Source of the DNA: a virus
Strand: one strand, 5' to 3'
DNA: 40,482 nt
IMG/VR virus record: IMGVR_UViG_3300030117_006888
Location: 1-40,482 of that record
This document shows positions 20,409 to 33,525 of the stretch, one piece after another (positions within the stretch are counted from its first letter, which is position 1; each line of letters opens with the position of its first letter). The position numbers and the translations under genes were made by a program. Under the pieces are notes generated by a model that did not search any database, was not told where the DNA came from, and saw only the letters and a list, made by a program, of their open reading frames with translations.

Positions 20409-20421
20409 TGGCAATCAAAAA

Positions 20422-20559
20422 ATGCCAGTGCTCTGGTTGTTGGTTGCTGTTTGGTTGTGGGCGTTGATTGGATTGGCAGTCATAAAAAAACCCCCAACCG
20501 GCGAAAGTGCAGAACCGGAAGGGGGTCAGCGGGTGTTACCCCGCGATGTTTCGGACTGA
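20422..20559 (+). CDS. Possible 45-residue single-pass membrane peptide
   Basis: A short frame encodes a strongly hydrophobic N-terminal helix (LWLLVAVWLWALIGLAV), two lysines and a polar tail. This is a clean membrane-peptide layout. However, no clear Shine-Dalgarno is present and the frame runs across the minus-strand terminator stem. The hydrophobic reading may be chance. Confidence 0.3.
   Translation: MPVLWLLVAVWLWALIGLAVIKKPPTGESAEPEGGQRVLPRDVSD
20484..20525 (-). terminator. Rho-independent terminator of the long minus-strand operon
   Basis: Read on the minus strand, CCCCCTTCCGG pairs imperfectly with CCGGTTGGGGG (20491-20525; two central mismatches) and is followed by seven T residues (20484-20490). 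It stands downstream of the gene at 20600-20809, where the operon should end. Confidence 0.7.
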
Positions 20560-20599
20560 CCAGTGGTCGTCCTTGTTTTATGCCGTCATCTGGTGGTCG

Positions 20600-20809
20600 T
20601 CAACTTTGTCCAAATGGTTGGCCGTGAATTTGACCGACTAAATGGTGGGCGGCCTCGTGCCAACTGTCGTCGCATGTGTTCCAATGTTCGGTCAGTTGTT
20701 TTTTGATGAAGTCTACGATTGCTGATTTGTGGCCTCGGGCGTCGGGGCGCAACTCACTTACAAGGATGTTTGCAACTTGCTCGCGGTTTCCTTTGGTGTT
20801 GGCAGCCAT
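20600..20809 (-). CDS. Hypothetical small protein, last gene of minus operon
   Basis: ATG at 20809 is preceded by GGAGG and overlaps the stop of the preceding gene by one base. The 69-residue product is helical with many His and Trp residues in its C-terminal half. It lacks cysteine pairs or a membrane segment. The gene ends before a terminator and is the promoter-distal member of the operon. No family was recognised. Confidence 0.65.
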   Translation of the reverse strand: MAANTKGNREQVANILVSELRPDARGHKSAIVDFIKKQLTEHWNTCDDSWHEAAHHLVGQIHGQPFGQS

Positions 20810-20982
20810 CACTCACCTCCTTCGGTGGCTTCGCTTTGGCAGTAGGCGCAGGTAAAATACTCAGGCCCAACTTTGTTGAGGTTCTCGGTTAAGTCACGGT
20901 CACCGTCCACGGTTACGTTGATATTGAACATCGCACTGTCATCCTTGTGAGATTCGCACTCAGGGTTGCTACACTTGAGCAT
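20809..20982 (-). CDS. Zinc-ribbon miniprotein (57 residues)
   Basis: ATG with AGGAGG upstream, stop overlapping the next ATG (TGATG). The protein starts with LKCSNPECES and ends with YFTCAYCQS, giving two cysteine pairs (CxxxxC and CxxC) around a beta-rich middle. That is a complete zinc-ribbon layout in 57 residues. It may bind nucleic acid or protein. Its function is unknown. Confidence 0.65.
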   Translation of the reverse strand: MLKCSNPECESHKDDSAMFNINVTVDGDRDLTENLNKVGPEYFTCAYCQSEATEGGE

Positions 20983-21155
20983 CACTTACCTCCTGAACAT
21001 GCTGGACATTCAGGTAGAATATCTGCAGCATCGACGACACTGTAAACGGACTCGCCTCTTTCGATTCTGTCCAACTGCTCTTGAGTGACGCTAACCTCCA
21101 CAGGCTTTTGCAACGTCCATGTTTTTCCATCATCCAATACGTATATGTACGTCAT
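20982..21155 (-). CDS. Hypothetical miniprotein with C-terminal CxxC (57 residues)
   Basis: ATG at 21155 with GGAGGTGA upstream. The stop TGA overlaps the ATG of the zinc-ribbon gene. The product begins with strands (TYIYVLDDGKTW), has a helix and ends with ECPACSGG, a lone CxxC. One pair alone cannot make a four-cysteine site unless the protein dimerises. The overlaps and ribosome site argue that it is real. Confidence 0.6.
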   Translation of the reverse strand: MTYIYVLDDGKTWTLQKPVEVSVTQEQLDRIERGESVYSVVDAADILPECPACSGGK

Positions 21156-21331
21156 GATTCACCTCCATCATTGTCGAATCCGATGACGGCACAATCTTCT
21201 TCGAATGCGTCGGGGTCTGTTTTGTATCGTTCAAGTGTTTGGCCTATAAAATACTCCTGCAAGTCAGTGAGACTCAGAGAATCCCAAACTGCTTCGGCTA
21301 ACTTCCAACGGTTGGCTTCATTGTTTTTCAT
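21152..21331 (-). CDS. Hypothetical acidic miniprotein (59 residues)
   Basis: A short gene ending in ATGA with the next gene. The product is acidic and helical (NRWKLAEAVWDSL, then DLQEYFIGQTLERY). No motif is visible. The ribosome site is weak (GGATTGAG), but the four-base overlap supports expression from the operon transcript. Confidence 0.55.
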   Translation of the reverse strand: MKNNEANRWKLAEAVWDSLSLTDLQEYFIGQTLERYKTDPDAFEEDCAVIGFDNDGGES

Positions 21332-21347
21332 TACTCAATCCAGTTTC

Positions 21348-22046
21348 TTAGTGCATTAGGAAGATTATGTACTGTTGTTTTTCTTGGTGATTGCTGCACA
21401 GTCCGCAAGAGTTGCAGTCGATGCCGCGTTGAGTTTGTGCGGGACAGACAACACCAAGTTTGCCCGATGGTGTTTTGAATTTCTCACCGTTCCAAACTGG
21501 TAGATGTTTGAGCGAAGTCCGTTTGCTGTCGGGAGTCCGGAACGGCACTGTCTGAGCGACGTGCCAGCCATCGGATAGGAGTTTGTCAGATTGTTCGAAA
21601 GTTTCTGTGCTGGCCATGGAGAGGCCCTTGAGGTGGGAACCTTTCGACTCTGCGAAGTGAGTGTAGATTAGCAATCCCTTGAAGCCTGCCTCTTTGAACT
21701 TGTTGGTCCAGTGTTGGACGACTGATCGGCTGAATATAGATGGATCACCACCAACCGCTGCCCGTGCGTATTTTGCTGAACGTCTGGATTTGTTGATTGC
21801 ACGGTCAATGCTGTAGCGTGAGGGGTCAGTTTTGTTGCGGCGTTGCATACCTGAATGTGCAGCGACTGGCATGCCGCGCCAGTAGTAACAACCGTTGTGA
21901 CGCATTGGGCAGCCACTGCATGACTTCTCAGTTTCCTGTCTGGTGGCACCGACGTATCCCTGTGGTATTGGTCCAGTCTTTGTGTTCGTGCTGTCGGGCA
22001 CCCATAGCATGGTTGCGTTTTTGCCGTCTGGCTGGATCTTGTTCAT
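21348..22046 (-). CDS. Conserved cysteine-rich phage protein (Gp88-like candidate)
   Basis: The 232-residue product has a first cysteine group, CSGCPMRHNGCYYW, near the N-terminus and a last group, VVCPAQTQRGIDCNSCGLC, near the C-terminus. Together these could hold zinc or an iron-sulfur cluster. The central part includes HWTNKFKEAGFKGLLIYTH, a helix and strand with a conserved look. This general layout resembles the cysteine-rich gene product 88 family of actinobacteriophages, recalled rather than aligned. Function is unknown. Confidence 0.6.
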   Translation of the reverse strand: MNKIQPDGKNATMLWVPDSTNTKTGPIPQGYVGATRQETEKSCSGCPMRHNGCYYWRGMPVAAHSGMQRRNKTDPSRYSIDRAINKSRRSAKYARAAVGGDPSIFSRSVVQHWTNKFKEAGFKGLLIYTHFAESKGSHLKGLSMASTETFEQSDKLLSDGWHVAQTVPFRTPDSKRTSLKHLPVWNGEKFKTPSGKLGVVCPAQTQRGIDCNSCGLCSNHQEKQQYIIFLMH

Positions 22047-22147
22047 GGGGTCTGCTCATTAGAAAAATGTGTGCTGTGTCGCGTTTTGGTTCGAACGGTG
22101 GGGTTCGGTAGTGATGGGCGGTGTCCAGTTTCGTAAGGGTGGGTCAT
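22043..22147 (-). CDS. Possible 34-residue peptide in operon overlap
   Basis: A short frame begins in the gap after the gene at 22161 and its TGA overlaps the next start (ATGA). The peptide is polar, Thr/Pro/His-rich. No ribosome site is visible. The overlap is the sole support. Confidence 0.25.
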   Translation of the reverse strand: MTHPYETGHRPSLPNPTVRTKTRHSTHFSNEQTP

Positions 22148-22160
22148 GATTTGATTCGGG

Positions 22161-22535
22161 TTAGTCGTCTGTCCTTGGCGGTGGAGGCCTGAGTATCTTG
22201 GACCATTTTGGTGGAGTGTCTCGTGGTCTGGTGGTTCGGACCTGTGGGTCATTGTCCATTGCTTGTTGCAGGCGTGAACGTATGGACACTGGAGCTTGGT
22301 TTACATCGCCGTTGATACTGTATGGGTCATGCGGGTCTGCAATCGCGGCTTCTTGGATCAGCATTTTGACCACGCTTAGAAGTCCGTCGAGTCGGAGTTG
22401 TTCTTCTTCACGTGAGTCGTGAACTTCTTGAAGTGTGGTTTCTTTGCAGTCGTAGGAATGTTCTGCTATTGCGAGTTCTGTGCAGACAACTGCCCGTCTG
22501 TACGCTTCGATTTGGTCCATGAGCATGTGGTACAT
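22161..22535 (-). CDS. Hypothetical helical protein
   Basis: The 124-residue product is helical over its first 75 residues, with charged heptad-like segments (REEEQLRLDGLLSVVKM), and then has a polar Pro/Arg-rich tail. Its start overlaps the previous stop. No motif or family was recognised. Coupling within the operon supports translation. Confidence 0.65.
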   Translation of the reverse strand: MYHMLMDQIEAYRRAVVCTELAIAEHSYDCKETTLQEVHDSREEEQLRLDGLLSVVKMLIQEAAIADPHDPYSINGDVNQAPVSIRSRLQQAMDNDPQVRTTRPRDTPPKWSKILRPPPPRTDD

Positions 22536-22984
22536 CAGTCAACCTTTGAGATGATGCGAAGGCCGGATGTGTTCTCCGGTTGCGCTGTTGATTGTGGGTC
22601 GTAGTCTTCGATGATGAGATCGCCTTGAAAGACGGTGTTGCCTTGGCGGTTGATTGTCGCGTATGGTTGGATTGTGTTCATGCGTTCGCTGGTCCTGTTG
22701 GGCCATACGTCCTGATAGTTGCCGCTGCGGATTTGATCGAGGTTGTACAGCAAGTAGTCGAATACGGGTTCGCTGCAGTTGTCGATGAGGTATCGAAGAA
22801 TGTGCTTCTGGCCGGAAGTCTGACGCCGCATTTGGGTGCCGTCAGGGTCCTTGGATAGTGTGCCGAGTAAACTGATAGTCAGGTCGACTGGGTAAACGCC
22901 AGCAGGTAGTTCGTTTTTGAACTGAGATGCGTTTCGGTTTTGGTTGAACTTGGCAAGGATTGCTTTTTGTAGGTCGTCGATCAT
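22535..22984 (-). CDS. Hypothetical protein, operon-coupled
   Basis: ATG at 22984 forms an ATGA overlap with the preceding gene; a longer upstream extension would lie inside it. The 149-residue product has a helical N-terminus (DDLQKAILAKF) and mixed alpha/beta body, with a YATINRQGNTVFQGDLI strand pair. No catalytic motif is visible. Function is unknown. Confidence 0.65.
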   Translation of the reverse strand: MIDDLQKAILAKFNQNRNASQFKNELPAGVYPVDLTISLLGTLSKDPDGTQMRRQTSGQKHILRYLIDNCSEPVFDYLLYNLDQIRSGNYQDVWPNRTSERMNTIQPYATINRQGNTVFQGDLIIEDYDPQSTAQPENTSGLRIISKVD

Positions 22985-23379
22985 GATGTTTTGTCCGGGT
23001 AGTGGGTGAAAGCTCGGATGATTGGCTTGTGGGTGTTGGTTGTCGCGCAATACTTGGTCGTGAAAAGTGCGATGTGTGCAGAATGAACAGGTTGTTCTGT
23101 TTCTTCGTTGATGAATGTTGTGTGATGGTAGGGGTTGTAGATCACGCGGGTGTTACAGCGTGCTGAATCCTCGTCGGCTACGTGATACATTCGGTGACCT
23201 ACTGCCATTGCGTGTACGTTTTTCCGTTGTTGGTCTCGTACTCTTTTGTTGCCAGCTTGACTGACTTTGAAGTCGACGCATTCGAGCGCAACATAGGGGG
23301 CGTGTTCATACACACGATCGTTGCGTTGAATGCTGTAGCACTTTTTGCGTACGTTCCAATATACTTTTTCTTTTGCCAT
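22981..23379 (-). CDS. Conserved phage protein of the KVYWNxRKKCxSI type
   Basis: ATG with AAGG upstream. The 132-residue product begins KVYWNVRKKCYSIQR and has VSQAGNKRVRDQQRKNVHAMAVG; this arrangement is recalled from many phage and prophage proteins of unknown function. It is basic, so nucleic-acid contact is possible. The C-terminal half carries several His residues. The family recognition is from memory. Confidence 0.65.
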   Translation of the reverse strand: MAKEKVYWNVRKKCYSIQRNDRVYEHAPYVALECVDFKVSQAGNKRVRDQQRKNVHAMAVGHRMYHVADEDSARCNTRVIYNPYHHTTFINEETEQPVHSAHIALFTTKYCATTNTHKPIIRAFTHYPDKTS

Positions 23380-23487
23380 GGTTGACCTTGGGTGTGAGGA
23401 GACACGAAGTGATTCGTACCGTTTCGTAGTGTACTGATCAGCGGTGTGTTGGGTTGTCCAGTAGTGTGATGTAGTGCTTTGGGTTTT

Positions 23488-23510
23488 GAGGCACCTGTTC
23501 GCCGTGCCTC
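23488..23510 (-). other. Intergenic hairpin between two operon genes
   Basis: GAGGCAC and GTGCCTC form a perfect seven-base-pair stem with a nine-base loop in the 144-base gap at 23380-23523. No T-run follows in the minus direction, so it is not a standard terminator. It might be an RNA processing or stability element. Confidence 0.35.
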
Positions 23511-23523
23511 CCTGCGCGAAAAA

Positions 23524-24162
23524 TTATTTGGCTGCTGCTGCTTGGGCGACAGGAGATACCCATTTGCCCTTCGCATTTTTGACTTGAACATCGTACCGGC
23601 CGAAGCTGAATTTGCGGCTCGCTCCGATGCCACAATACAAACCTGCATCGACCACAGCTTGAATCAACATGTCACTGTCGAGTTTGGTGTTCTGAATGAT
23701 GTTGATTGTGAACTCACAAGACCAGTCAGGGATGACAGTGCGTGTGATTGGTAATGATGCACCATTGGTTTTGTTGCGGATGATTGTGTCGTACCTGAAT
23801 CGAGGGTCAGTCGAGATGCCCTGTGGTGTCTGAGGTCCCTCGTATTTCAGTGGGGTGTCGCCGCCGAAGAAGCAGTACTTGGTGATTGCCGTGCCAAGCC
23901 TGTGCAGCTTTGCGCCGTCAATGACGCTGCCACGAATGCATTTTTCGGGAAGGTGCATGCCGATTTCTTCGTTGTAATAGCAGCCAGCCTCAACAAGTTT
24001 TTGTGACTGTTGCTCAAGCAGTGCGTTTTTGTCTGCGGTTTTTGACTTCATGGCCTTGTTTAGTGCCGCGAGTTCTTTCGCGTATCGATTGCGTGGGTCT
24101 GCTGTTTGGTTGTTGTCAAGCATCAACAGTTTGCCGGAGATGCGGAAGTGTAGTTGTTTCAT
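23524..24162 (-). CDS. Conserved phage protein with RAMP-like glycine-rich loop
   Basis: ATG with GAGGA upstream. The 212-residue product has NQTADP (about residues 18-23) near the N-terminus, a central IPDWSCEFTINI strand and near the C-terminus AGLYCGIGASRKFSFGRYDV, quoted in part. A QTADP-bearing family with a DWSxxFT strand and a G-rich AGxxxGxGxxRxxxGR loop is found in many phages. The G-rich loop and the strand order recall RAMP-superfamily RNA-binding folds such as Cas5, Cas6 and Cas7. The relation to CRISPR proteins is only a suggestion. Function is unknown. Confidence 0.65.
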   Translation of the reverse strand: MKQLHFRISGKLLMLDNNQTADPRNRYAKELAALNKAMKSKTADKNALLEQQSQKLVEAGCYYNEEIGMHLPEKCIRGSVIDGAKLHRLGTAITKYCFFGGDTPLKYEGPQTPQGISTDPRFRYDTIIRNKTNGASLPITRTVIPDWSCEFTINIIQNTKLDSDMLIQAVVDAGLYCGIGASRKFSFGRYDVQVKNAKGKWVSPVAQAAAAK

Positions 24163-24707
24163 GATTTGTCCTCATGGTTGGTGGCTTTGGGTGTGCCGTG
24201 GTTTGTGAACTCAATGGGTTGGGTTTCTGTCTTCAGTGCGTCACGTCTTGCCTGTGATGCATGTTGGTGAAGCGAGCTTAGACGAACCTGATGGTTCATT
24301 TTTGCCCGTCTTTCTGCTCGTGTGAGGTCAGTGTCGCGAGTGTGGTCCAAGATTTTCGCGCCTTTCCGGATTGCTGCAATGATCTGTTTGGAGACATTGT
24401 GAGTTGTGTATGTGATGTTCTCGCCGGGCTGCAAAATTACAAAGCCGTAGCCATGTGCTGTTTTTGGGAATCGTCCGGTGTGTACGAGAATGGCTTCGCG
24501 CCAGCCTTCTCGGACTGAACAGATTGTCATTGTCCATTTGCGGTATACGGATACAGGGTCTGCATCAGTGGGTGGTGTGAGTCCGCTCCAGTCAATGATG
24601 TTTTTATTGGAAACAATTTTGAACTCTGGTCGTTCTGCCATGATTGACAGTGTTTGAGATACGCATTTGTCGATTGCTTCTCTGATGTCTTCTCTCGATG
24701 TGGTCAT
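24159..24707 (-). CDS. Hypothetical protein coupled to the RAMP-like gene
   Basis: The 182-residue product ends in an ATGA overlap with the RAMP-like gene, so the two are probably made together and may work together. It has an N-terminal helix, a central beta region containing WREAILVHTGRFPKT and HGYGFVILQPGE, and a basic helical C-terminus. No cysteine motif or catalytic signature was recognised. No clear Shine-Dalgarno precedes the ATG. Confidence 0.65.
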   Translation of the reverse strand: MTTSREDIREAIDKCVSQTLSIMAERPEFKIVSNKNIIDWSGLTPPTDADPVSVYRKWTMTICSVREGWREAILVHTGRFPKTAHGYGFVILQPGENITYTTHNVSKQIIAAIRKGAKILDHTRDTDLTRAERRAKMNHQVRLSSLHQHASQARRDALKTETQPIEFTNHGTPKATNHEDKS

Positions 24708-24783
24708 TGGTCGTCCGTTGTGGCGAGGTGTGAATAGTCTCGATTTGCTGCGTACGGTGGTGTTTGGTTCCGTATTGAAATGT

Positions 24784-24814
24784 GCAGGGTTTTGGGTCGT
24801 ACGGATGACCCTGC
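24784..24814 (-). other. Intergenic inverted repeat GCAGGGT/ACCCTGC
   Basis: Seven-base arms flank a 17-base loop in the 119-base gap at 24708-24826. There is no T-run, so a terminator is not supported. It may be an operator or an RNA element controlling the downstream pair. Confidence 0.3.
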
Positions 24815-24826
24815 GAACCGGAAGAG

Positions 24827-25009
24827 TTATTTTGGTTGTTGTTTTTTCGATCTTGTCAGTGTGACCGGACGGTCACAGTCGAAGCAGTAGTTGTTGTCGG
24901 ATGCGTCCCAGTGTCCGGCATCGTCGAAGACCTTGTTTGTATTGGGGTCAATCCATGCCTTGAGTTGTACGTTAGGGGATAGGCATTCTGCGCATACTAT
25001 GGGCGGCAT
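24827..25009 (-). CDS. Zinc-ribbon miniprotein (60 residues)
   Basis: ATG with GAGG upstream, starting two bases after the DUF932-like gene stop. The 60-residue product has VCAECLSP and, later, YCFDCDRP, a four-cysteine zinc ribbon with a W-I-D-P-N middle. It ends in a basic tail (RSKKQQPK). It probably binds zinc and may contact nucleic acid. Function is unknown. Confidence 0.7.
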   Translation of the reverse strand: MPPIVCAECLSPNVQLKAWIDPNTNKVFDDAGHWDASDNNYCFDCDRPVTLTRSKKQQPK

Positions 25010-25011
25010 GA

Positions 25012-25944
25012 TTACTTTGCCTCGCCAGCTTCGACGTATTCACGGATCTGCAAGTCGAATGATGGGATGTAAGCCTCGGTTACAGATCCGCCTGCGTCAG
25101 CAATTGCACGCGTTGCGTGGTCGATGCCAGCATAGTGTGCGAATGCGCCTCGTGGTGCAGTGCGTTGACCGGCTGCAGTCACTGCTTGGTAAGCACTGAA
25201 CAAATCGTACTGACCATGTTCGTCATGCAGGTCGCCATTGTGGCAAGCGTTCCAGTAACGGAAAGCAGCGGTGAACTCCTGAGGTTTGATCAAGCCACGG
25301 CTGAATAGAACACCCATGTATGCACCGAACAAGTCGTTGCGAACTGGTATGTCTTTCCATGTCTGAAGCATTTCGATGCGTTGACGGATTGGCTCGATTG
25401 CCTCGGTGCAGATTTCTTGAATCATGCCGTTGAGTGTGTCGAACACGTTGGTGGTTTGTTTGGCCTTGATCATGTATTCGCCGTTGAAGATTCCGTTGGC
25501 GCATACCGTTGGAGCAGAACCGATGGCTGCTGCAGGTGCAATGCTTTTGTCGAGACTGGACCGCATTGCGATGGTGATGGCATGCCCGCTGTGACCTGAT
25601 CCGAAACCAATCATCCCGAACATCTGATTGTTGTTTCGGTTGAGAGCGTACGTTTCGAAGATAGGATCTGCATCGAGCATGTTGCCCATCACATCACGGC
25701 AATGGTCAGCTAGCGTTGTGAAGCCAACGGGTTGCCACTGTACGTTGCCGGAGCGTGGATGGAAAGTTGGTTCGGGTGTTGGTACTGTTGCAAGCTGTGT
25801 GTAGTCACAACGATAAGCGTCGGGAGCGCCGATAGTCATGATCTGCTGTGACTTGAGTCGCGGTAGAGGTGCTGGCCTGCGTCGTGGTAGGTCAGGGTTG
25901 AGTCGCAGAGTTGATAGTGGTGTGGATGTTGTCGGTTGCATCAT
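25012..25944 (-). CDS. DUF932-like phage protein
   Basis: ATG with GGAG upstream, and ATGA overlap with the previous gene. The 310-residue product has a proline-rich N-terminus, a central GFGSGHSGHAITIAMRS-type region, and the C-terminal FRYWNACHNG...YDLFSAYQAVTAAGQR, quoted in part. Layout and this last region fit the DUF932 (phage/plasmid-like) family seen in many mobile elements. Its function is not known; some members are linked to recombination. The call is from motif memory, not a search. Confidence 0.6.
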   Translation of the reverse strand: MMQPTTSTPLSTLRLNPDLPRRRPAPLPRLKSQQIMTIGAPDAYRCDYTQLATVPTPEPTFHPRSGNVQWQPVGFTTLADHCRDVMGNMLDADPIFETYALNRNNNQMFGMIGFGSGHSGHAITIAMRSSLDKSIAPAAAIGSAPTVCANGIFNGEYMIKAKQTTNVFDTLNGMIQEICTEAIEPIRQRIEMLQTWKDIPVRNDLFGAYMGVLFSRGLIKPQEFTAAFRYWNACHNGDLHDEHGQYDLFSAYQAVTAAGQRTAPRGAFAHYAGIDHATRAIADAGGSVTEAYIPSFDLQIREYVEAGEAK

Positions 25945-26198
25945 GTCTCCAGTTGGATGATGGTTGTTGGGTCAGGACACGGAACGTTGATTCGTTCGCA
26001 TTGACCCGTGGCTGGGTGATATCGGTGACGGAACTGGTGGATCCAGTGGCCATCGATTTTTACGGTGCCCATGTACTCCCAGTGTTCGTGAGAATCGACA
26101 GGACCGGGCGGTTTTGTTCTGAACTTGGTGTTGAATACAATTGACCAAGCGCGTTCCCATTCGGGAGTGTCTCGCATCATAGAGTGGATAGCTGGCAT
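25941..26198 (-). CDS. Hypothetical small protein
   Basis: The 85-residue product overlaps the DUF932-like start by ATGA. It contains HEHWEYMGTVKIDGHWIHQF and a HPATGQCERINVPCP region, so it is His- and Trp-rich with two cysteines. No known motif was matched. Its upstream end overlaps the previous gene by 22 bases, which is longer than its neighbours show, so a later start is possible. Confidence 0.6.
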   Translation of the reverse strand: MPAIHSMMRDTPEWERAWSIVFNTKFRTKPPGPVDSHEHWEYMGTVKIDGHWIHQFRHRYHPATGQCERINVPCPDPTTIIQLET

Positions 26199-26491
26199 GG
26201 AGGTATCGTTCCTTTGCGTGGATTACGCGGTAGCTCCTGCAGTAAAGTCTGAAGCAGATTTACTGGTGAAGCGGGAATGATTCCATCGTATACAGCCAAC
26301 AGCAGGGTAGCTTTGGTCGGTGACATTGGTAGTATACCGACTGCGTCCTCTGTGCCCTTCTTGATTAGAACTTGATTTGGTTTAGTTTGTTGATTGAGCC
26401 ACTGCACGTATCGAGTGCGGTGGGGTGTGTTTTGTTTTTTGCGGAGAGGTACCGTGAATCGGCGTCTCTCCTTCTCTTCATCGTCTGTCAT
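26177..26491 (-). CDS. Hypothetical basic protein
   Basis: ATG with AAGGAG upstream. The 104-residue product has a charged N-terminus (DDEEKERRR) and basic stretch, then a hydrophobic helix (KATLLLAVYDGIIPASPVNLLQTLL) that is amphipathic rather than clearly membrane-spanning; only part is quoted as TLLLAVYDGIIPASPVNLL. It follows ssb by nine bases. No family was recognised. Confidence 0.6.
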   Translation of the reverse strand: MTDDEEKERRRFTVPLRKKQNTPHRTRYVQWLNQQTKPNQVLIKKGTEDAVGILPMSPTKATLLLAVYDGIIPASPVNLLQTLLQELPRNPRKGTIPPCQLSTL

Positions 26492-26500
26492 TGGCGCTCC

Positions 26501-26884
26501 TTAGAACGGGATCTCGTCGTCTGTTTGATAGGGTCGTTGTGTTGTTGCTCCGTTGGTTGGTGTTTGTCGTTTGGATAGAAACTCTACTTTGTCGCCGATG
26601 ATCTCGAAGCTTTTGCGCTCGACACCTTCTTTGTCTGTGTACTTGTTGGACCGGATCTTGCCCAGCACTGCGACCTTCGAACCCTTGGCGAGGAACTTGG
26701 CGCATGACTTCGCTGTGCCCGCGAACACAACGACACGGTGCCACTCTGTGTGATCGACCCATTGATTGTCGCGTTTGATTGATTCGTTTGTTGCTACGCT
26801 GAGGATGCAGATCTGCATGCCGCTTTCTGTTTCGCGGAATTCAGGGTCTTGGCCGAGGTTGCCTGTTAGGAATACATGATTCAT
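26501..26884 (-). CDS. ssb: Single-stranded DNA-binding protein, canonical SSB
   Basis: The 127-residue product has the OB-fold signature: NHVFLTGNLGQDPEFR at the N-terminus, then SVATNE, WHRVVVFAGTAKSCAKFLAKG and VLGKIRSNKYTDKEG, and it ends in the acidic tip DDEIPF that recruits SSB partners. The linker is short. It coats ssDNA during replication and recombination. Since it retains the partner-binding tip, it may also recruit host repair or replication proteins. It is the second ssDNA-binding-type gene here, besides the DUF669-like one at 10416. Confidence 0.93.
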   Translation of the reverse strand: MNHVFLTGNLGQDPEFRETESGMQICILSVATNESIKRDNQWVDHTEWHRVVVFAGTAKSCAKFLAKGSKVAVLGKIRSNKYTDKEGVERKSFEIIGDKVEFLSKRQTPTNGATTQRPYQTDDEIPF

Positions 26885-26980
26885 GTTGATACCTTGTTGG
26901 GTTTGTTGTTTGTATGGAACCTGTTTTTAGCCATGCTGGTTGATAGGTGGTTTTCGAAACAGGCAAAAGGGTTGACCACC

Positions 26981-27451
26981 TTATAGTTCTTGGCAGTTTG
27001 TTTGTTGTGTTTTGAATAGCGGTTTACGTTTGTGATCGACGTGGTCACCAGCTACTGCATCGGACATGGTGAGTGCTGTGTAGAAAGCGAGACGTCGAGC
27101 GTTTTGATTGTAGAACTCATCCTCTTCTGTAGATGAATTTGATATGTGGCAGCCGATGTCGAGTTGTCTGTTGATTTCGTCGACGAACTTTTTACGTAAC
27201 TCGGCAGTGTCGGGTCTGGAGTGGTATCTGTCTCTGACTGTTGCTAGAGCGAGACCGTTGTACTCACAGAGGAGTAGGCAGTACGGACTGAGACCAAGAC
27301 GTATTGTGTTGTTCATCTTGATGTAAGGTGAACACTCGAAGAGTCCTTTGCCGTGTAGATAGCTTGCGAGTCGTACCAGTTCGAGTGGTGTTGTGCGGTT
27401 GAGCCTCGCGCTGTCACGTTTGTCGAATGTGTAGATAATTACAGGGGTCAT
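26981..27451 (-). CDS. Hypothetical protein
   Basis: ATG at 27451 makes an ATGA overlap with the previous gene. The 156-residue product starts with a hydrophobic strand (PVIIYTFD), has a LVRLASYLHGKGLF helix and a central NTIRLGLSPYCLLLCEYNGL strand pair. No catalytic or binding motif was recognised. Just after its stop a 7-bp inverted repeat (AGGTGGT/ACCACCT) may form a hairpin. Function is unknown. Confidence 0.65.
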   Translation of the reverse strand: MTPVIIYTFDKRDSARLNRTTPLELVRLASYLHGKGLFECSPYIKMNNTIRLGLSPYCLLLCEYNGLALATVRDRYHSRPDTAELRKKFVDEINRQLDIGCHISNSSTEEDEFYNQNARRLAFYTALTMSDAVAGDHVDHKRKPLFKTQQTNCQEL

Positions 27452-27666
27452 TGTGTCGCCTGTGGTTGGGGCGTTGGGTTCTGCAACTTGATTTGACATA
27501 CAGTGCAATCGAGCATGTCAGTCACAAGAATTTCTTTGACGAATACACGACCGGGTCCGAAACGAAGACGATCAAGGTGTGGTCTGACTACTGACAAAGG
27601 AACACGCTCCTGCTCGATGTGTTGTCCGCCGTCGATGTCGTACCAGTAGAGATTGAATAGTTCCAT
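27448..27666 (-). CDS. Hypothetical small protein with CxxC
   Basis: ATG at 27666 was chosen because TTGGAG precedes it; the longer frame overlaps the DUF3228-like gene. The 72-residue product includes LYWYDIDGG, a VRPHLDRLRFGPGR segment and a C-terminal LDCTVCQIK. The CxxC is single, so any zinc site would need a partner. Coupled to the next gene by ATGA. Confidence 0.6.
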   Translation of the reverse strand: MELFNLYWYDIDGGQHIEQERVPLSVVRPHLDRLRFGPGRVFVKEILVTDMLDCTVCQIKLQNPTPQPQATQ

Positions 27667-27680
27667 TTTTTGCTCCAAGT

Positions 27681-27755
27681 TTAAGGCATGAAAAGTGTTG
27701 CGAATCCAACGAAGTAGATTGCAAGTAGGAAGGTTGATGCAAGGTCCCAGAACAT
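27681..27755 (-). CDS. Putative 24-residue membrane peptide
   Basis: A 24-codon frame starts in a TAATG overlap with the DUF3228-like gene stop and ends before the next ribosome site. Nearly the whole peptide is one hydrophobic helix (WDLASTFLLAIYFVGFATLF). It resembles small phage membrane peptides by size and layout alone. Coupling and composition support it, but length makes chance possible. Confidence 0.4.
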   Translation of the reverse strand: MFWDLASTFLLAIYFVGFATLFMP

Positions 27756-28354
27756 TAGCGCACGTTCGCGTAGGCGGAATGGTAGTCAAGTGACTGTTGC
27801 TTTTCGGTCGTTGTGTAGGTACATCCGCTGCCACCTGCTGCGATTCCAGCCTCGTTGCGTGCGATGGTGGACGGCGTTGGGGGTATGGGAGTACCAACCA
27901 TCTCGCCGTTGATCGATACAATAGCGTGACTGGTTGTTGGTTGTACCTTGATACCTTCTCGAGCGAGTTGTCCTGCACTGTATACGATTAGGTGTAGGTA
28001 CTTTGCTGTTGCAGGTTGCACGTCACTTGATTGGAAGAACGTGCGTTCGACAGGTTCTTCACCTTCACGACGAGGTTCGTTTGTTGTTTGCAGCAGATGT
28101 CTGTTCGTGTCTGTGATCAGAGCCTGACCTGCCAAGCAGTTTGTGAAGTTTTCGATGACGATTGTTTTCACGTATGGCTTCGTTGAATCAGTGAATGTCG
28201 CGACAAGTTTGTCGAACGTTGGGTGTGTGATTGTGGCCATGAAATCTTCGGGACTGCCGGAGATGCTTGTGCCGATGAAGTCGGGGTCGAAGTGACGTTT
28301 AGCGAAGTCTGTGATTTCAATCCGTGATAGATCGATTGGTCTGGTCAGTGCCAT
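27755..28354 (-). CDS. DUF3228-like protein
   Basis: ATG at 28354 with AGGAG upstream; an earlier in-frame start at 28441 lacks support. The 199-residue product has a central YLHLIVYSAGQLAREG, then HAIVSINGE, PPTPSTIARNEAG and GGSGCTYTT. This order matches DUF3228, in which a VLYSAxxL strand, a WEIVS strand, a P-x-TMARN segment and a GGT-x-x-x-Y end recur. The family has no known function and includes bacterial and phage members. Recognition is by memory of the family pattern. Confidence 0.6.
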   Translation of the reverse strand: MALTRPIDLSRIEITDFAKRHFDPDFIGTSISGSPEDFMATITHPTFDKLVATFTDSTKPYVKTIVIENFTNCLAGQALITDTNRHLLQTTNEPRREGEEPVERTFFQSSDVQPATAKYLHLIVYSAGQLAREGIKVQPTTSHAIVSINGEMVGTPIPPTPSTIARNEAGIAAGGSGCTYTTTEKQQSLDYHSAYANVR

Positions 28355-28417
28355 GGTTGGCTCCTGTGTTTGGGTTTTGGGTTGATTGATTTGTCGAACA
28401 GCGTTGGCTGTGTAAAT

Positions 28418-28468
28418 GTGCGCCCTGTTGTTATTGCGCACGGAGCCGGACGCCCGCTCGTTGTGCGC
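28418..28468. promoter_or_regulatory. Three GTGCGC/GCGCAC sites in the gap before the DUF3228-like gene
   Basis: GTGCGC (28418-28423), GCGCAC (28436-28441) and GTGCGC (28463-28468) lie in the 161-base gap between 28355 and 28515. The last two form an inverted repeat with a 21-base spacer. They could be an operator or an RNA hairpin. No clear promoter hexamers were seen beside them. Confidence 0.3.
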
Positions 28469-28515
28469 TCAACCTTCGGTGGTTTGGTTTGTGGTATCCG
28501 AAGGATTGCCAGTTG

Positions 28516-29166
28516 TTACCCACTGGTGGGGGTTTGTTGTTTGTTGAGATTGTCGAATGATGCGATGAATTGTGTCCACATTGCTGTGAGTTCGCATTCC
28601 TGAGCGAAGACATGATCGACCGTTCTGCATCTTGAGTGACAATGGACCTCGAGATGGGTGGAGTTCGAGTTTGTTTCTGTGGTTTCTACGCTGACTCCGA
28701 TATCGTCGAGGATGTACATTGCGCAGTATGTCGTTGTCGGTGTCCCGTCGGCTCTGTTTTTCGGGAAATGGATGAACATGTTTATGTCGAGTTCGTCGGC
28801 AGTCCGCCAGTGTTCGCATGGTTCAACTGGGCAAACGTCGACTTGTACTGAGAACCTTGCCTCAGGTGCTATGTAAGGATCGAACATGTCTTCGTATTTT
28901 TCGAGACGCCCTCTGATTTCGTCCTCCAGTAGTGATTCGATCCGCAGTTCGCAGTTGCCTTTCAAGCTTTGGAGTTGAACCTTGCGTTCTGAGACATACG
29001 GTTCCATTTTGGCTGCAAGTGTTGCTACCGCCTTGCGTATGGAATCAGGAAGCTCTGCGCTTTGAATGGCTTGGATGTTTTTGTTCATGACTCGGATGTG
29101 AGAATCTATGTGGTCTTCGCAATCGTCGAGTATGCTCCTGCTTGGAAAGTTTGAGTTTTTGGACAT
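28516..29166 (-). CDS. Hypothetical helical protein
   Basis: ATG with AGGAG upstream. The 216-residue product has a helical N-terminal half rich in charge (KMEPYVSERKVQLQSLKGN) and a C-terminal beta-rich half with scattered cysteines and His. No zinc pair spacing or catalytic motif was recognised. It is an early member of the long operon. Confidence 0.65.
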   Translation of the reverse strand: MSKNSNFPSRSILDDCEDHIDSHIRVMNKNIQAIQSAELPDSIRKAVATLAAKMEPYVSERKVQLQSLKGNCELRIESLLEDEIRGRLEKYEDMFDPYIAPEARFSVQVDVCPVEPCEHWRTADELDINMFIHFPKNRADGTPTTTYCAMYILDDIGVSVETTETNSNSTHLEVHCHSRCRTVDHVFAQECELTAMWTQFIASFDNLNKQQTPTSG

Positions 29167-29194
29167 GATGTTTGCTCCTGATTTTTATGCAGGT

Positions 29195-29521
29195 TTAAGG
29201 GAGTGAAATTCTGAAATCGTCGCACTCGGAAACGAATCGTGAACGTTGTTCTTCTGTGAAGCCGTTGCTTTCGCAATATCCATCGATGATTACTTCTCGC
29301 AGGTTGAGGACGAGCTTCATCATTTTCCACGACATGTTACCGATTTCTTCGTTGATGTCGTACGCCAAGTCGATGCAGTGAACTGTGTTGAATCGTTCCA
29401 AATTTTTCGCCAAGACCTGCATCTTCCCGATCTTTTGTTGCTGCTGCATTATTGAATGCATTGTTTTGCAGATCCATTCGATGTCGTCTTTGGCGTCGTT
29501 GAATGTGATGTCTGTGGCCAT
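29195..29521 (-). CDS. Hypothetical helical protein, first gene of the minus operon
   Basis: ATG at 29521 follows AGGAG at good spacing. The 108-residue product is almost entirely helical (MHSIMQQQQKIGKMQVLAKN, later MSWKMMKLVLNLREVI). It is the promoter-proximal gene of the run down to 20600. Directly upstream lies a six-base inverted repeat (ACACTA-TGGG-TAGTGT, 29533-29548) and the GTAACC repeats. Function is unknown. Confidence 0.65.
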   Translation of the reverse strand: MATDITFNDAKDDIEWICKTMHSIMQQQQKIGKMQVLAKNLERFNTVHCIDLAYDINEEIGNMSWKMMKLVLNLREVIIDGYCESNGFTEEQRSRFVSECDDFRISLP

Positions 29522-29532
29522 TGTTGCTCCTG

Positions 29533-29548
29533 ACACTATGGGTAGTGT
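29533..29548. promoter_or_regulatory. Inverted repeat before the first operon gene
   Basis: ACACTA and TAGTGT are perfect six-base arms with a four-base centre, just upstream of the ribosome binding site of the gene at 29195-29521. As DNA it could be an operator; as RNA, a leader hairpin close to the ribosome site. Confidence 0.35.
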
Positions 29549-29559
29549 TTGATGTTGGT

Positions 29560-29835
29560 GTAACCACCAAGATGTGGGTGGTTACGCGATTGCTTTGGTA
29601 CAACCTTGTGAATGGCTGAACGCCCCTGTTACCCACCTGTTTGCACCATGAATATTCTTGTGCGCGCGGTCGTGTGTGAAGCAATATTTGTTTGTTTTGC
29701 TTTGATGCACAGTGCTTGCGCGCGAAAGGTACATGTTCTTTTTTGTGGTTACAGTGGTTACACTGCTTGGTAATAGAGTTTGTACCTTTGGTTTGGTGTA
29801 ACCCATTGTGGGTAACGTTTGGGTTACTGGGTTAC
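29560..29835. repeat. GTAACC/GGTTAC repeat cluster, candidate origin or control region
   Basis: About nine copies of GTAACC or GGTTAC variants lie in both orientations in 276 bases: GTAACCACC (29560) with its perfect partner GGTGGTTAC (29577), GTTACCCACC (29638), GTGGTTAC twice (29745, 29754), GTAACCC (29798), GGGTAAC (29810) and GGGTTAC twice (29821, 29829). An AT-rich tract follows at about 29836-29885. No convincing gene occupies 29522-30110. Clustered short repeats beside AT-rich DNA are seen at phage and plasmid origins and at multi-site promoters. Confidence 0.5.
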
Positions 29836-30110
29836 ACAGGAAACAAAAAGTTGAAATAGAAAAAACACAAAATAAAAATCGCCAGTACTCTGATTGTTTC
29901 AACCCGGCCCGGTTGCGCCCTGCCCCTGAGGCCGGGGGTTGGGTGGCTGGGAGTGTCTGTGAGTTCCGGGGTGCGTGCGTTGGCATTACCACTGAGTTGG
30001 TTGGTGTCTCCTGTGTGACTGGCTGAACTGCGATGCTTGGTACGGAGACGGTCGTCGTACACATGGAAAAGAAGGTCATGGTAATGACTCCTTTGCGCTA
30101 CGGGCGGCAG

Positions 30111-30146
30111 AAAAAAGGCCCCGAGTCGCCGAAGCGACCCGGAGCC
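30111..30146 (-). terminator. Strong rho-independent terminator after the 30164-31138 gene
   Basis: Read on the minus strand, GGCTCCGGGTCGC and GCGACTCGGGGCC form a 13-bp stem (two G-T wobbles) closed by a TTCG tetraloop and followed by six T residues. It ends transcription of the gene at 30164-31138, so genes from 29521 down need their own promoter in the repeat region. Confidence 0.88.
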
Positions 30147-30163
30147 AGCGGGCAGGTACGTGG

Positions 30164-31138
30164 TTACTTGCTTGCGTCAAGGATGCGAGCAGCAAGGTCG
30201 TTGGCCACCTCGTGACGTTTCGCCATTTCACGAACCTCACGGTTGTCGCGGCGAGCTTCATCGGCCTCATGTACGTAAGGCGTTTCAACTACCTGCGTTC
30301 TCTCGTACCGACCGGTTGCGTGGTTGTGAATCCATTGGTCGGACGGGAGAGCGTCCTCATCGGCAACAAGCTTCTTGACCGGAAAAGGCCCGAACACGCC
30401 GTGCTGGGTTGGGTCAGGACACTCGTTCGACTTGAAGGACATCTTCGGGACATCCTCACCAAGGAGGATGGCGTCCTCGATGGCCTTCGCAGCACCATCG
30501 CGAGACCCGCGAAAGGCATCGTACGGCTTGCCGGTGCGTTGAGAGACACCAGCAGGGACCATCTTACGGAATGTTGAATAGGTCTCAACATTCGCAAGGA
30601 AGGAGAGGATGGCCATCACCTCCTTCGTCGCTGCCTTCAAGGCCTTGGTGTGGTTGCGAAGAACCAACGAGGCAGATGACTTACGACCGTCGGCCTTGGT
30701 TGGGGGTGTCATCTTCGCAAGCCAAGCAGCGAGGGCGATGTCCTCATCAACGAACAGGTGGGCGTGGGTCGAGCCATTGAACGCAAGTCCATTGGAACGA
30801 AGCTGGGCCAAGGTGCGTCGAGGAGCCTTGTCTTGGCTGAACATCCGCATACCCATAACGAATGGGTAAAGCGTGACGTCCTCGGCATCTTGGTCCTCTC
30901 GTGGCACCTGAAAGCCGCAACGCAACTCGGAACCCTTGAGCATCGCCATGACCTTCTCTTCCTGATGGTCGATTTGTCGCCATTCTTGGTCTTCACCGAA
31001 GAGGTCGTCGATGCGGGCATCGAGTTTGTTGCAAGCCTCCTTGAACGCCTTAGCAGCAGCTTTGTTCTTCTTCTGGAAGACGCCCATAGCTGCAGAAGTT
31101 TCGTTGGACGGACGTTGAATTACAGGTTGACGTGACAT
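30164..31138 (-). CDS. Hypothetical protein, single-gene transcript
   Basis: ATG with AAGGAAG upstream. The 324-residue product has a helical, basic N-terminus (KKNKAAAKAFKEACNKLD), a middle segment including LYPFVMGMRMFSQDKAP and LAFNGSTHAHLFVDED, and a charged helical C-terminus. It contains no cysteine cluster, P-loop or membrane segment. It is transcribed alone, with its own terminator, which often marks strongly expressed or separately timed genes. Base composition is richer in C than the genes to its left. Function is unknown. Confidence 0.7.
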   Translation of the reverse strand: MSRQPVIQRPSNETSAAMGVFQKKNKAAAKAFKEACNKLDARIDDLFGEDQEWRQIDHQEEKVMAMLKGSELRCGFQVPREDQDAEDVTLYPFVMGMRMFSQDKAPRRTLAQLRSNGLAFNGSTHAHLFVDEDIALAAWLAKMTPPTKADGRKSSASLVLRNHTKALKAATKEVMAILSFLANVETYSTFRKMVPAGVSQRTGKPYDAFRGSRDGAAKAIEDAILLGEDVPKMSFKSNECPDPTQHGVFGPFPVKKLVADEDALPSDQWIHNHATGRYERTQVVETPYVHEADEARRDNREVREMAKRHEVANDLAARILDASK

Positions 31139-31161
31139 GTTAGCACTTCCTTATTGGAAAA

Positions 31162-32110
31162 CGGGACGCTACGCGCCCCAAGGTTTAGACAACGGACAAA
31201 CTCCGAATTGAATATGAACGATGTCAAAGAACAGACCAGAAGTCGAAATGACCCCAAGGTCAAAAGCCGAACATTCGGCTTGGTTATAAGAAACGAAAAC
31301 CAGACATTAAAAGCTCCAAGGCTCAACAAACTGTGATGCTCTTTACTTGTAAACATTTGGACCTCCTTTCTCACTGTCGTTGGGAAAGGAGGGCCAAGTT
31401 GAGCCGTAAAACACTAGTAGTAGTAGTGCAGCACCGGCTATAACAGAAAGAGCGAGCCACAAGGCGAGCACCCAATCCCATAGGGTACGACTCACTTCGC
31501 GAGAAGTGACATTTAGCCGGTGCCAGCACACCAGCGTTAAGGATAGTCCTTCGCGCTGCGGGAGTGAAGCGTAGGCTTTTTCCTTAGAATCTAAACAAGA
31601 AGTACGAAAAACTACGAGGGGTATCTGACTTCACTCCGTCTAGCAGCGCAACAAAAATAGTGTCCGGATATGCCACCAGACAGACCGGATGACCAAACTT
31701 GTTTGGTCACCCCATGCGACTTGCTAAACTGGGTCTTCTGGTTGACTCCGTCAATCGATCGAAGATCGAAAGAAGGCTCAGTGCAAGCAACGTGTTTGGT
31801 CGCGGGGGTTTGCCGGTCCAAAAAAGAAGCCAGAGTTCAGAGCGTTTCCCAGCGAATGAAGATGTCGATTCGTTCGTTCTGCGGTTAGTGATCCGCGAGG
31901 AGCGGTTTATCGAACCGGACGGAAGTGAGTAGATACCAAATGTCCGAAAACCGAACCAGTGAGAATCGTGTAAGCTACTAGGATTATTGAGGTTTGTCGG
32001 CATGCCCGGCGGGCCGGTGGTCTCTAGTTACTTCGCGAGGAGGGTCGATAAGGGATAGCGACGAGTGGAAAAAACTGGTCGCGCAAGCGACTCCGCTGAT
32101 TGGCTCAAGT
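31162..32110 (+). ncRNA. Putative large structured non-coding RNA
   Basis: This stretch lacks a convincing protein gene yet has many complementary helices. Nested or long-range: 31320-31327 with 31398-31405 (8 bp, enclosing 31357-31370 with 31384-31397, 13 bp and one mismatch); 31431-31440 with 31514-31523 (10 bp, extended by GTGC/GCAC); 31553-31559 with 31643-31649 and 31561-31569 with 31629-31637. Local: 31492-31509 with a GCGA loop, 31690-31709, 31851-31878, 31893-31905, 32031-32042 with a GCGA loop, 32077-32092 with a GCAA loop. GNRA loops occur only when read on the plus strand. Both ends are estimates. A weak TTGACG/TTATTG pair at 31127-31156 could be its promoter. Confidence 0.6.
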
Positions 32111-32123
32111 AACCAAAACGATT

Positions 32124-32244
32124 AATCCGCCCAGACGTTGAATCCGCCACGCGTTGATGCCGGAACAACGATCAATCCGCCACCCCGCCGCTGAGAGGAA
32201 CTCGACGTAATCTTCGCAGAGAGTTTGAATCCGCCACCCCGCCG
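32124..32244. repeat. AATCCGCC direct repeats
   Basis: Four direct copies of AATCCGCC begin at 32124, 32141, 32174 and 32228. The last two extend to a 17-base identical copy, AATCCGCCACCCCGCCG. Spacings of 17, 33 and 54 are near multiples of 17. They lie between the structured RNA region and the RHH-type gene. Binding sites for the regulator or a packaging/replication protein are possible. From 32245 to 32452 no gene or clear promoter was found. Confidence 0.6.
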
Positions 32245-32452
32245 ATGGTCGCAGCAGTACTTAGAATACCGGAACCGGAGGTTGATAGTGGAGGGGGGGA
32301 GGGTACCCCTGTTGTGCGCCGTACCACCCATAATGCCGAGACCGCTTTCCCGACCGGGCCTATTCGCCAACTGCCTTACCGCTGTGGTATTACCGCCTTG
32401 CTACGAAAGGGCTTACGTGGTACTTTTCTGATCCAACCCATTGAGGACCACT

Positions 32453-33070
32453 ATGCCACGACCCAAATCAGACGAGATCAAGCTAAATTTAGACTCCGAC
32501 ACCCTTGAACGACTGGACAAACTGGTACCGATCGTCGCTTCATCGGCTGCTGCTCGGGAGTTTGGGGTCGAAGTCGACCGTAGACTGGTCTCTCGGGTCG
32601 CTTTGTTGCGTGGTCTGACCGCTATGGAGGCGGCGGTGCCTCAAGAATCGGCACCTGCACCGCCAGAAACTCCTGTGATGGACGTCGCGCCCCCTCCTCC
32701 GCTGTCGATTCCGGTCCCGGAGCCCGAAAACGAGCCAGAATCGGAGTCTGAAGAGGTCTCAATGGACGTTGAGTCCGCTGAAGTTGGGGATGATGGCTTG
32801 ATTCGGCCCCCTGAAGGCTGGAATCTGTGGAGTTCTCGGGAACGGATCCCGCCGGAGCATGTAGATGTCGACAACCACTACCAAAAAGGTGGCTGGAACC
32901 GGTACTGGGGACGTTCTGGGGAGGAAGTTATTGCGTTTTATTGGACTCCAGAGCCGGAAAAGCAGGATTATCCGTCATATAAGAAGACTGACGCCAACGG
33001 TAAGGAGATTATTGTGCAAAAAACCCCATATGGCCCCGGTCACATGATTCCCCACGGGTGGTCAGCGTGA
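32453..33070 (+). CDS. RHH-like (CopG/Arc-type) N-terminal regulator with acidic linker
   Basis: ATG at 32453 is preceded by GAGGAC; an earlier in-frame ATG at 32441 is less well placed. The 205-residue product starts PRPKSDEIKLNLDSDTLERL, a strand and helix that look like ribbon-helix-helix DNA-binding proteins, with a second helix rich in Ala and Arg. A long Pro/Glu-rich linker (about residues 70-115) follows and a Trp-rich C-terminal domain (WNLWSSRERIPPEH). It could bind the AATCCGCC repeats upstream. The RHH call is tentative. Confidence 0.6.
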   Translation: MPRPKSDEIKLNLDSDTLERLDKLVPIVASSAAAREFGVEVDRRLVSRVALLRGLTAMEAAVPQESAPAPPETPVMDVAPPPPLSIPVPEPENEPESESEEVSMDVESAEVGDDGLIRPPEGWNLWSSRERIPPEHVDVDNHYQKGGWNRYWGRSGEEVIAFYWTPEPEKQDYPSYKKTDANGKEIIVQKTPYGPGHMIPHGWSA

Positions 33071-33525
33071 AACTGCAACCAACATCCGAAGAAATTGCGG
33101 CATATTTGGAAGAAATGAACCCTGAAGCCTTAATGTACGAGGGATTCGAGGATGCTCTAGTTGGATTTGCGAGTCGGTGCTCGACTCAGCCACTCGCTTT
33201 GTACGATCGCGGGAAATGCATTGATATCCTCGTAGATAGCGGAATGAGTCCCGAAGATGCCGAGGAGTACTTCGCATATAACGTCGAAGGTTGCTGGGCT
33301 GGACCCAACACTCCTCTAATCGCCGCCTTTTGTCTTGAGCCGATAGGACTCCGGTACCCCATATCGAACTTGGAGTTGATTACAGAGACGGGCGGTGACG
33401 TCGAGGTATACGTCGGCAGACATACCGGGCCGGAATCCGTAGCCGACTCTGCAGATACTGGGTCGGGTGGCGTAAACGGTGCATCCGAGTCCGGGGGTCC
33501 CGTCGGATCTAGTAAACAAACCTAA
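33067..33525 (+). CDS. Conserved phage protein of the GFEDALVG / AEEYFxxNVxG type
   Basis: GTG at 33067 overlaps the previous stop (GTGA). The 152-residue product carries YEGFEDALVGFASR, ALYDRGKCIDILVDSGM and EDAEEYFAYNVEGCWAG. This pattern is recalled from many short phage proteins, which usually end just after the NVxGxxxG-x-x-TP stretch. Here the frame continues about 65 residues into a Gly/Ser-rich tail lying antisense to the YkgJ gene, so the tail is probably not conserved. Function is unknown. Confidence 0.65.
   Translation: MKLQPTSEEIAAYLEEMNPEALMYEGFEDALVGFASRCSTQPLALYDRGKCIDILVDSGMSPEDAEEYFAYNVEGCWAGPNTPLIAAFCLEPIGLRYPISNLELITETGGDVEVYVGRHTGPESVADSADTGSGGVNGASESGGPVGSSKQT

Follow-up and report, generated by a model that had tools for sequence, protein, structure and literature searches.

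A large structured non-coding RNA with exchangeable arms, predicted between two divergent operons of uncultivated phages

The locus, its genes and its relatives

The window, that is the whole stretch of DNA analyzed here, is a virus record of 40,482 bases. In a group of uncultivated phages, the locus of interest is located between two oppositely facing gene clusters and comprises about 0.5-0.9 kb without a protein gene. In the window the corresponding gap spans 31139-32452 and holds no open reading frame of more than 98 amino acids wholly inside. Matches of frames of at least 30 amino acids to relatives are confined to stretches in which the DNA itself is conserved, and they shrink to fragments beyond the closest relative. 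As they follow DNA conservation and fade with distance, they give no indication of a conserved protein gene. A minus-strand frame at 31120-31374, which is open in the closest relative with 78% amino-acid identity, is not counted as coding evidence. The initial annotation had described this gene desert in an otherwise packed genome, and the desert was confirmed. Of the large gaps, just one other was considered as a candidate (20409-21347); it was rejected because it is filled with small minus-strand frames, and the gap at 31139-32452 therefore stands out. The left operon (21348-31138) is minus-coded, yet the GC skew of the plus strand is positive throughout it, that is, independent of the coding strand.

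IMG/VR contigs carrying the same locus were reached via the protein encoded at 33058-33525, while the primase-helicase led to 35 related contigs, the longest of 65-76 kb. Five relatives of the putative RNA were found (L003, L005, L004, L099 and L100), all of them between the same divergent operons and upstream of the same gene (32453-33070), which is held by 22 of 39 related records. The sample thus consists of six genomes from a single sequence collection, three of them closely alignable. A blastn search of a collection of annotated phages gave no match to the RNA region, and in DNA motif scans of viral contigs the known relatives were the only real matches; one promising match, L031, was rejected as it lies inside a coding frame. 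When bacterial and archaeal genomes were scanned for the core motif, 20 contigs were returned, the core model gave one weak match at chance level, and no convincing relative was apparent in the genomes scanned.

Predicted fold and parts of the RNA

For the plus strand of 31340-32120, the predicted folding energy is -298.6 kcal/mol, compared with a mean of -241.8 kcal/mol for dinucleotide shuffles (z=-7.9); the minus strand reaches z=-5.0 against the same kind of shuffles. In 150-base windows, local folding is strongest at about 31320-31800, weak at 31800-32110 and poorer than in shuffles (z>0) at 32100-32450. Because folding there is worse than in shuffles, the last third of the desert (32119-32452), with its repeats, G-run and promoter, is regarded as conserved regulatory DNA and not RNA. 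A structured RNA is predicted to be encoded by approximately 31320-32108, its transcription being inferred. The predicted parts are listed in Table 1. The structure analysis covers nested helices only.

Table 1. Predicted features of the RNA locus and of the equivalent locus in sister phages (window coordinates; strand given where assigned).
Feature	Position	Strand	Remarks
5' domain	31320-31405	+	outer stem 31320-31327/31398-31405; hairpin 31356-31398
TAGTAGTAGTAGT motif	31415-31427	+	window, L003, L005, L004, L099
Long-range stem	31431-31523	+	31431-31440/31514-31523 around GCGA-capped hairpin 31492-31509
Long-range domain	31553-31649	+	31553-31559/31643-31649; 31560-31569/31629-31637; inner stem-loops
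Hairpin TGACCAAA-CTTG-TTTGGTCA	31690-31709	+
Core three-way junction	31691-31793	+	common to all six genomes
Core P1	31728-31733/31777-31782	+
Core P3	31735-31739/31771-31775	+
Core P4	31740-31746/31750-31756	+
Core P5	31757-31760/31764-31767	+
3' part	31800-32108	+	weaker local folding; two GNRA hairpins
3' hairpin, GCGA loop	32031-32042	+
ACGAGTGGAA	32061-32070	+	in 3' part
3' hairpin, GCAA loop	32078-32091	+
DNA element	32119-32305		outside RNA fold
Operator-like palindrome TTACCGCTGTGGTATTACC and sigma-70-type promoter	32376-32426	+	overlapping
Right-hand gene	32453-33070	+	constant right neighbour of locus
~180-nt element, type A			L101, L103, L109, L125
~180-nt element, type B			L102, L123, L126
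~180-nt element, type C			L124

The 5' domain (z=-4.1) has equivalents in L003, L005 and L099 with z values of -3.7 to -4.1, and it covaries, TTGGACCTCC/GGAGGGCCAA in the window being replaced by AATGAACTCC/GGAGTTCATT in L005. Read on the minus strand, the hairpin of this domain (hairpin 1) contains AAAGGAGGTCCAAATG; at 31354-31374 it presents the Shine-Dalgarno sequence AGGAGG and an ATG that starts a short reading frame running in the direction of the left operon. Similar ribosome-site-like minus-strand sequences occur in L099, L100 and L004. It is therefore possible that this hairpin also has a part in the leader of the left operon. The segment 31399-31405 can pair either locally with 31320-31326 or with the 3' end at 32102-32108, to which it is also complementary, and these two alternative partners leave the outermost closure unsettled. 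The run TAGTAGTAGT is, within these loci, exclusive to the large RNA, where it occurs at one place per locus and on the plus strand only.

Farther inward, L003 and L005 carry a larger branched insert inside the equivalent of the 31431-31523 stem. The hairpin at 31690-31709 has a G-U variant in L005 and, in L004, a wholly different yet complementary stem (GTCAATC/GATTGAC). The P2 arm of the core junction is missing from the window and present in the other five genomes. The 3' part is near-identical in L003 and mostly gone from L005.

Covariation among the relatives

The initial annotation had named two long-range helices, 31431-31440/31514-31523 and 31553-31569/31629-31649, had suggested a search for compensatory changes and had regarded an absence of covariation among homologues as refuting an RNA. 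Both helices proved to be exactly placed and both covary in relatives, so that the proposal withstood this attempt at refutation. In three genomes the first stem reads GCACCGGCT/AGCCGGTGC, GAAAAATCC/GGATTTTTC and GAAAAATCT/AGATTTTTC, and the hairpin enclosed by it (31492-31509) TCACTTC/GAAGTGA, TCGTTTT/AAAACGA and TCATTTC/GAAATGA; for the 31553-31649 domain, L005 shows compensatory AU-GC and GC-AU changes.

RNAalifold, applied to the window, L003 and L005, yields 189 pairs, 20 of which are changed on both sides. If the structure is predicted from the window only, L005 has 11 compensated pairs where 3.9 are expected and L003 has 7 where 1.4 are expected under a label-shuffle null. In the core junction, aligned for five genomes with long apical loops trimmed, nine pairs are changed on both sides as compared with 2.0 in shuffles. 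In nine helices, 221 of 227 positions pair if both arms come from one genome, as opposed to 405 of 572 if arms are combined across genomes; 39 of 70 pairs are changed on both sides, and eight G-U and no A-C pairs are present on the plus strand. These helices were picked by eye on the plus strand and are biased to pairing and to that strand, such that the figures for them are illustrative. A covariance model, R1, built from the other five genomes with the window left out, finds the window at E=9e-12; its hits comprise all six phages that carry the large RNA, and 39 further phage records gave none.

Which strand encodes the RNA

The plus strand is likely to be the RNA strand. The annotation had seen three GNRA hairpins on the plus strand only, and this held: the loops are GCGA (31499-31502), GCGA (32035-32038) and GCAA (32083-32086), with none on minus. 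In all six RNAs A exceeds T (201 and 158, respectively, in L004), and in five of the six genomes the plus strand outperforms the minus strand in folding relative to shuffles, the fold of L005 being slightly better on minus. Compensatory pair counts are about equal for the minus-strand fold, and strand-neutral helices with a single wobble are too few to tell the strands apart. Terminator-like hairpins are found on the minus strand at 32091-32078 and 31682-31661. As the hairpin at 32078-32091 carries a GNRA loop on plus, it is left undecided whether true minus-strand terminators exist. Neither a consistent upstream plus-strand promoter for the RNA nor a consistent minus-strand promoter was found.

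Arm turnover and replacement in sister phages

Arms of the RNA are gained, lost and swapped between phages while the core is kept. The window RNA has no P2 arm and the L003 RNA, otherwise close to it, does. A 62-base stretch of L003 that includes part of this arm is 95% identical to L099, whose RNA around the stretch cannot be aligned to L003 at that level.

Sister phages with the same right-hand gene contain elements of about 180 nt at the same locus, whose ends (GTGACCGGG..CCCGATCACG) resemble each other and whose middles are of at least three kinds (types A to C in Table 1). Two of these elements were folded and gave z=-5.2 and -6.0. One type of middle exhibits mostly sequence identity, with only two pairs changed on both sides, and the structure of the ~180-nt elements is therefore less well proven. 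No Rfam match was obtained for them in the loci scanned. With this reservation about the structure of its substitutes, sister phages have other structured elements in place of the large RNA. The sequence ACGAGTGGAA is shared by the large RNA (window, Table 1; L099, oriented, at 2069) and the type B element (L102, L126) and is preceded by CGCGAGG in several cases.

The downstream DNA element and the right-hand gene

Four ATCCGCC repeats (32125, 32142, 32175 and 32229) and the G-run GGAGGGGGGGAGGGTA (32290-32305) separate the RNA from the right operon's promoter. The element containing them is conserved in L003, L004 and L005, and related forms are present in L099, L100 and the sister phages. 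The promoter, TTGCTA-17-TACTTT with an extended -10 (TGG before the -10), has a -35/17/-10 arrangement that is identical in L004, L099, L100 and L109, related phages of both clades. As inferred from its sequence, it would drive the right operon with gene 32453-33070 as the first gene. The product of this gene has no match in PDB or Pfam. AlphaFold modeled it with a mean pLDDT of 64, showing a helix-rich N-terminus, a Pro-rich linker and an unrecognized C-terminal domain; from the sequence and this modest model, a ribbon-helix-helix-like N-terminus is inferred.

Discussion

The data presented here show a non-coding locus in a conserved position, helices that covary, arms that turn over and replacement of the whole in sister phages. 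What they do not show directly is transcription from the plus strand, the ends of the RNA, action in trans or any target; these are inferred in the absence of expression data. On this basis we slightly favor, with a probability of roughly 0.55, a stand-alone, trans-acting non-coding RNA of a new family encoded on the plus strand. It would probably begin at 31320 or farther upstream and end close to 32108, and its conserved core junction would hold several arms varying in length and sequence between phages. As a stable fold it may bind or titrate a host or phage factor, although no target has been identified, and by analogy with GOLLD and ROOL it may self-associate. In this proposal the large RNA is not the leader of a neighboring gene: the right operon persists in sister phages in which ~180-nt elements take the place of the large RNA. 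A trans-acting RNA is the simplest explanation because the locus is fixed, the core conserved, the arms exchangeable, a protein absent and the downstream operon equipped with its own promoter. Against it stand the lack of expression data and of a consistent upstream plus-strand promoter, the good folding of the minus strand with its terminator-like hairpins, the minus-strand ribosome site in hairpin 1 and the fact that only six genomes are available.

Among the alternatives, a long 5' leader with attenuators and a hairpin hiding the ribosome site, structured and read leftward into the left, minus-strand operon, survives best and is nevertheless unlikely. In its favor are the z value of the minus fold (-5.0), the two terminator-like minus-strand sites at 32091-32078 and 31682-31661 and the AGGAG plus ATG of hairpin 1 on the minus strand of the window, L099, L100 and L004. 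However, the plus strand is favored by GNRA loops, by unpaired stretches rich in A and by the occurrence of G-U instead of A-C pairs; it also folds better relative to shuffles in five of six genomes, and no consistent minus-strand promoter was found. Three further explanations are considered very unlikely. A cis-acting plus-strand leader regulating the right operon from gene 32453 onward would agree with the common direction and the invariable position directly upstream of this gene, but a conserved promoter and operator separate the RNA from the gene, and in sister phages an unrelated RNA precedes the same gene and promoter. Part of a replication origin, with an RNA priming or controlling replication, could be suspected from the four repeats and the conserved G-run directly after the RNA and from the inferred resemblance of the neighboring protein to small DNA-binding proteins. 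The repeats and the G-run are, however, equally compatible with a promoter-operator region, and none of the window, G001 and G006 shows a switch in the sign of GC skew at the locus, which disfavors a bidirectional origin here. Palindromic DNA, or debris between genes that yields no RNA, would be consistent with the variability of the locus and with transcription not having been shown, but leaves the conserved core, the G-U pairs, the GNRA loops and the covariation over long distances unexplained. That the RNA is a divergent GOLLD or ROOL, as similar length, many helices and phage origin might suggest, is all but excluded by the lack of any Rfam match at the gathering score, of a match to GOLLD or ROOL at relaxed thresholds and of a tRNA nearby.

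Returning to the trans-acting RNA, a bolder reading is conceivable, namely that of an RNA cassette between fixed operons that is rebuilt by arm swaps or replaced outright by ~180-nt RNAs. If true, this would be in keeping with a phage RNA that counters variable host factors, e.g. defense systems. Arm turnover and replacement are indeed what an RNA facing changing host factors might exhibit; yet relaxed constraint on peripheral stems would look like arm turnover as well, and no target has been identified. Were it confirmed that unrelated structured RNAs are exchanged at one fixed site, this would suggest a diversification of RNA modules by phages comparable to that of accessory protein genes. 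Only a small number of very large structured phage RNAs are known, and what they do is unsettled. An additional family that has a core amenable to modeling, and relatives revealing dispensable arms, offers a new handle on the function of such RNAs.

Comparison with known large RNAs

The initial annotation had proposed a large ornate non-coding RNA. Such an RNA, read on the plus strand, is supported by covariation, conserved position, absence of coding and strand signals, transcription remaining inferred. It had left undecided whether the RNA belongs to GOLLD or ROOL or is new and had pointed to a comparison with Rfam covariance models. That comparison upholds the second possibility: at the gathering score there is no match to any family, GOLLD and ROOL included, in the window or in 13 related loci, and relaxed thresholds give nothing for GOLLD or ROOL and only weak chance matches below gathering. 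tRNA genes are absent from the window and from the near-complete relative G001; ARAGORN finds two in G006, distant from the locus.

GOLLD is an RNA of phages and prophages, often of more than 800 nt, with many helices and with conserved and variable parts (PMC12286853). The window RNA resembles it in being phage-borne, in size, in its many helices and in being partly conserved and partly variable. It differs in lacking a covariance-model match and in its secondary structure; moreover, the shared core is internal in the window RNA and forms the 3' half in GOLLD, which is often, though not strictly, found near tRNAs, whereas neither the window nor G001 has one. ROOL, a structurally complex phage RNA of about 660 nt for which a protein partner is not known (PMC12286853), likewise gives no covariance-model match, and the window RNA is not part of a tRNA island. 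GOLLD is further characterized by assembly into a multimeric RNA nanocage, and ROOL by defined pseudoknots and kissing loops. OLE, which comes from bacteria and assembles into a homo-oligomer (PMC12286853), is similarly large and ornate, again without a covariance-model match. Phage ICP1, which has no tRNAs, produces a non-coding RNA of approximately 800 nt from an ORF-less space of about 1 kb, and this RNA is its most abundant transcript (PMC7567579); length and ORF-less space are similar to those of the window RNA, the phage is a different one. No function is established in these sources for GOLLD and ROOL (PMC12286853) or for the ICP1 RNA (PMC7567579). The likeness to GOLLD and ROOL is thus limited to size, style and phage origin. 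In being long, non-coding and extensively structured with covariation, the putative RNA agrees with the loose kind of large ornate phage RNAs, which are also expected to be abundant discrete transcripts and within which it matches no known family and is likely to represent a separate, new one.
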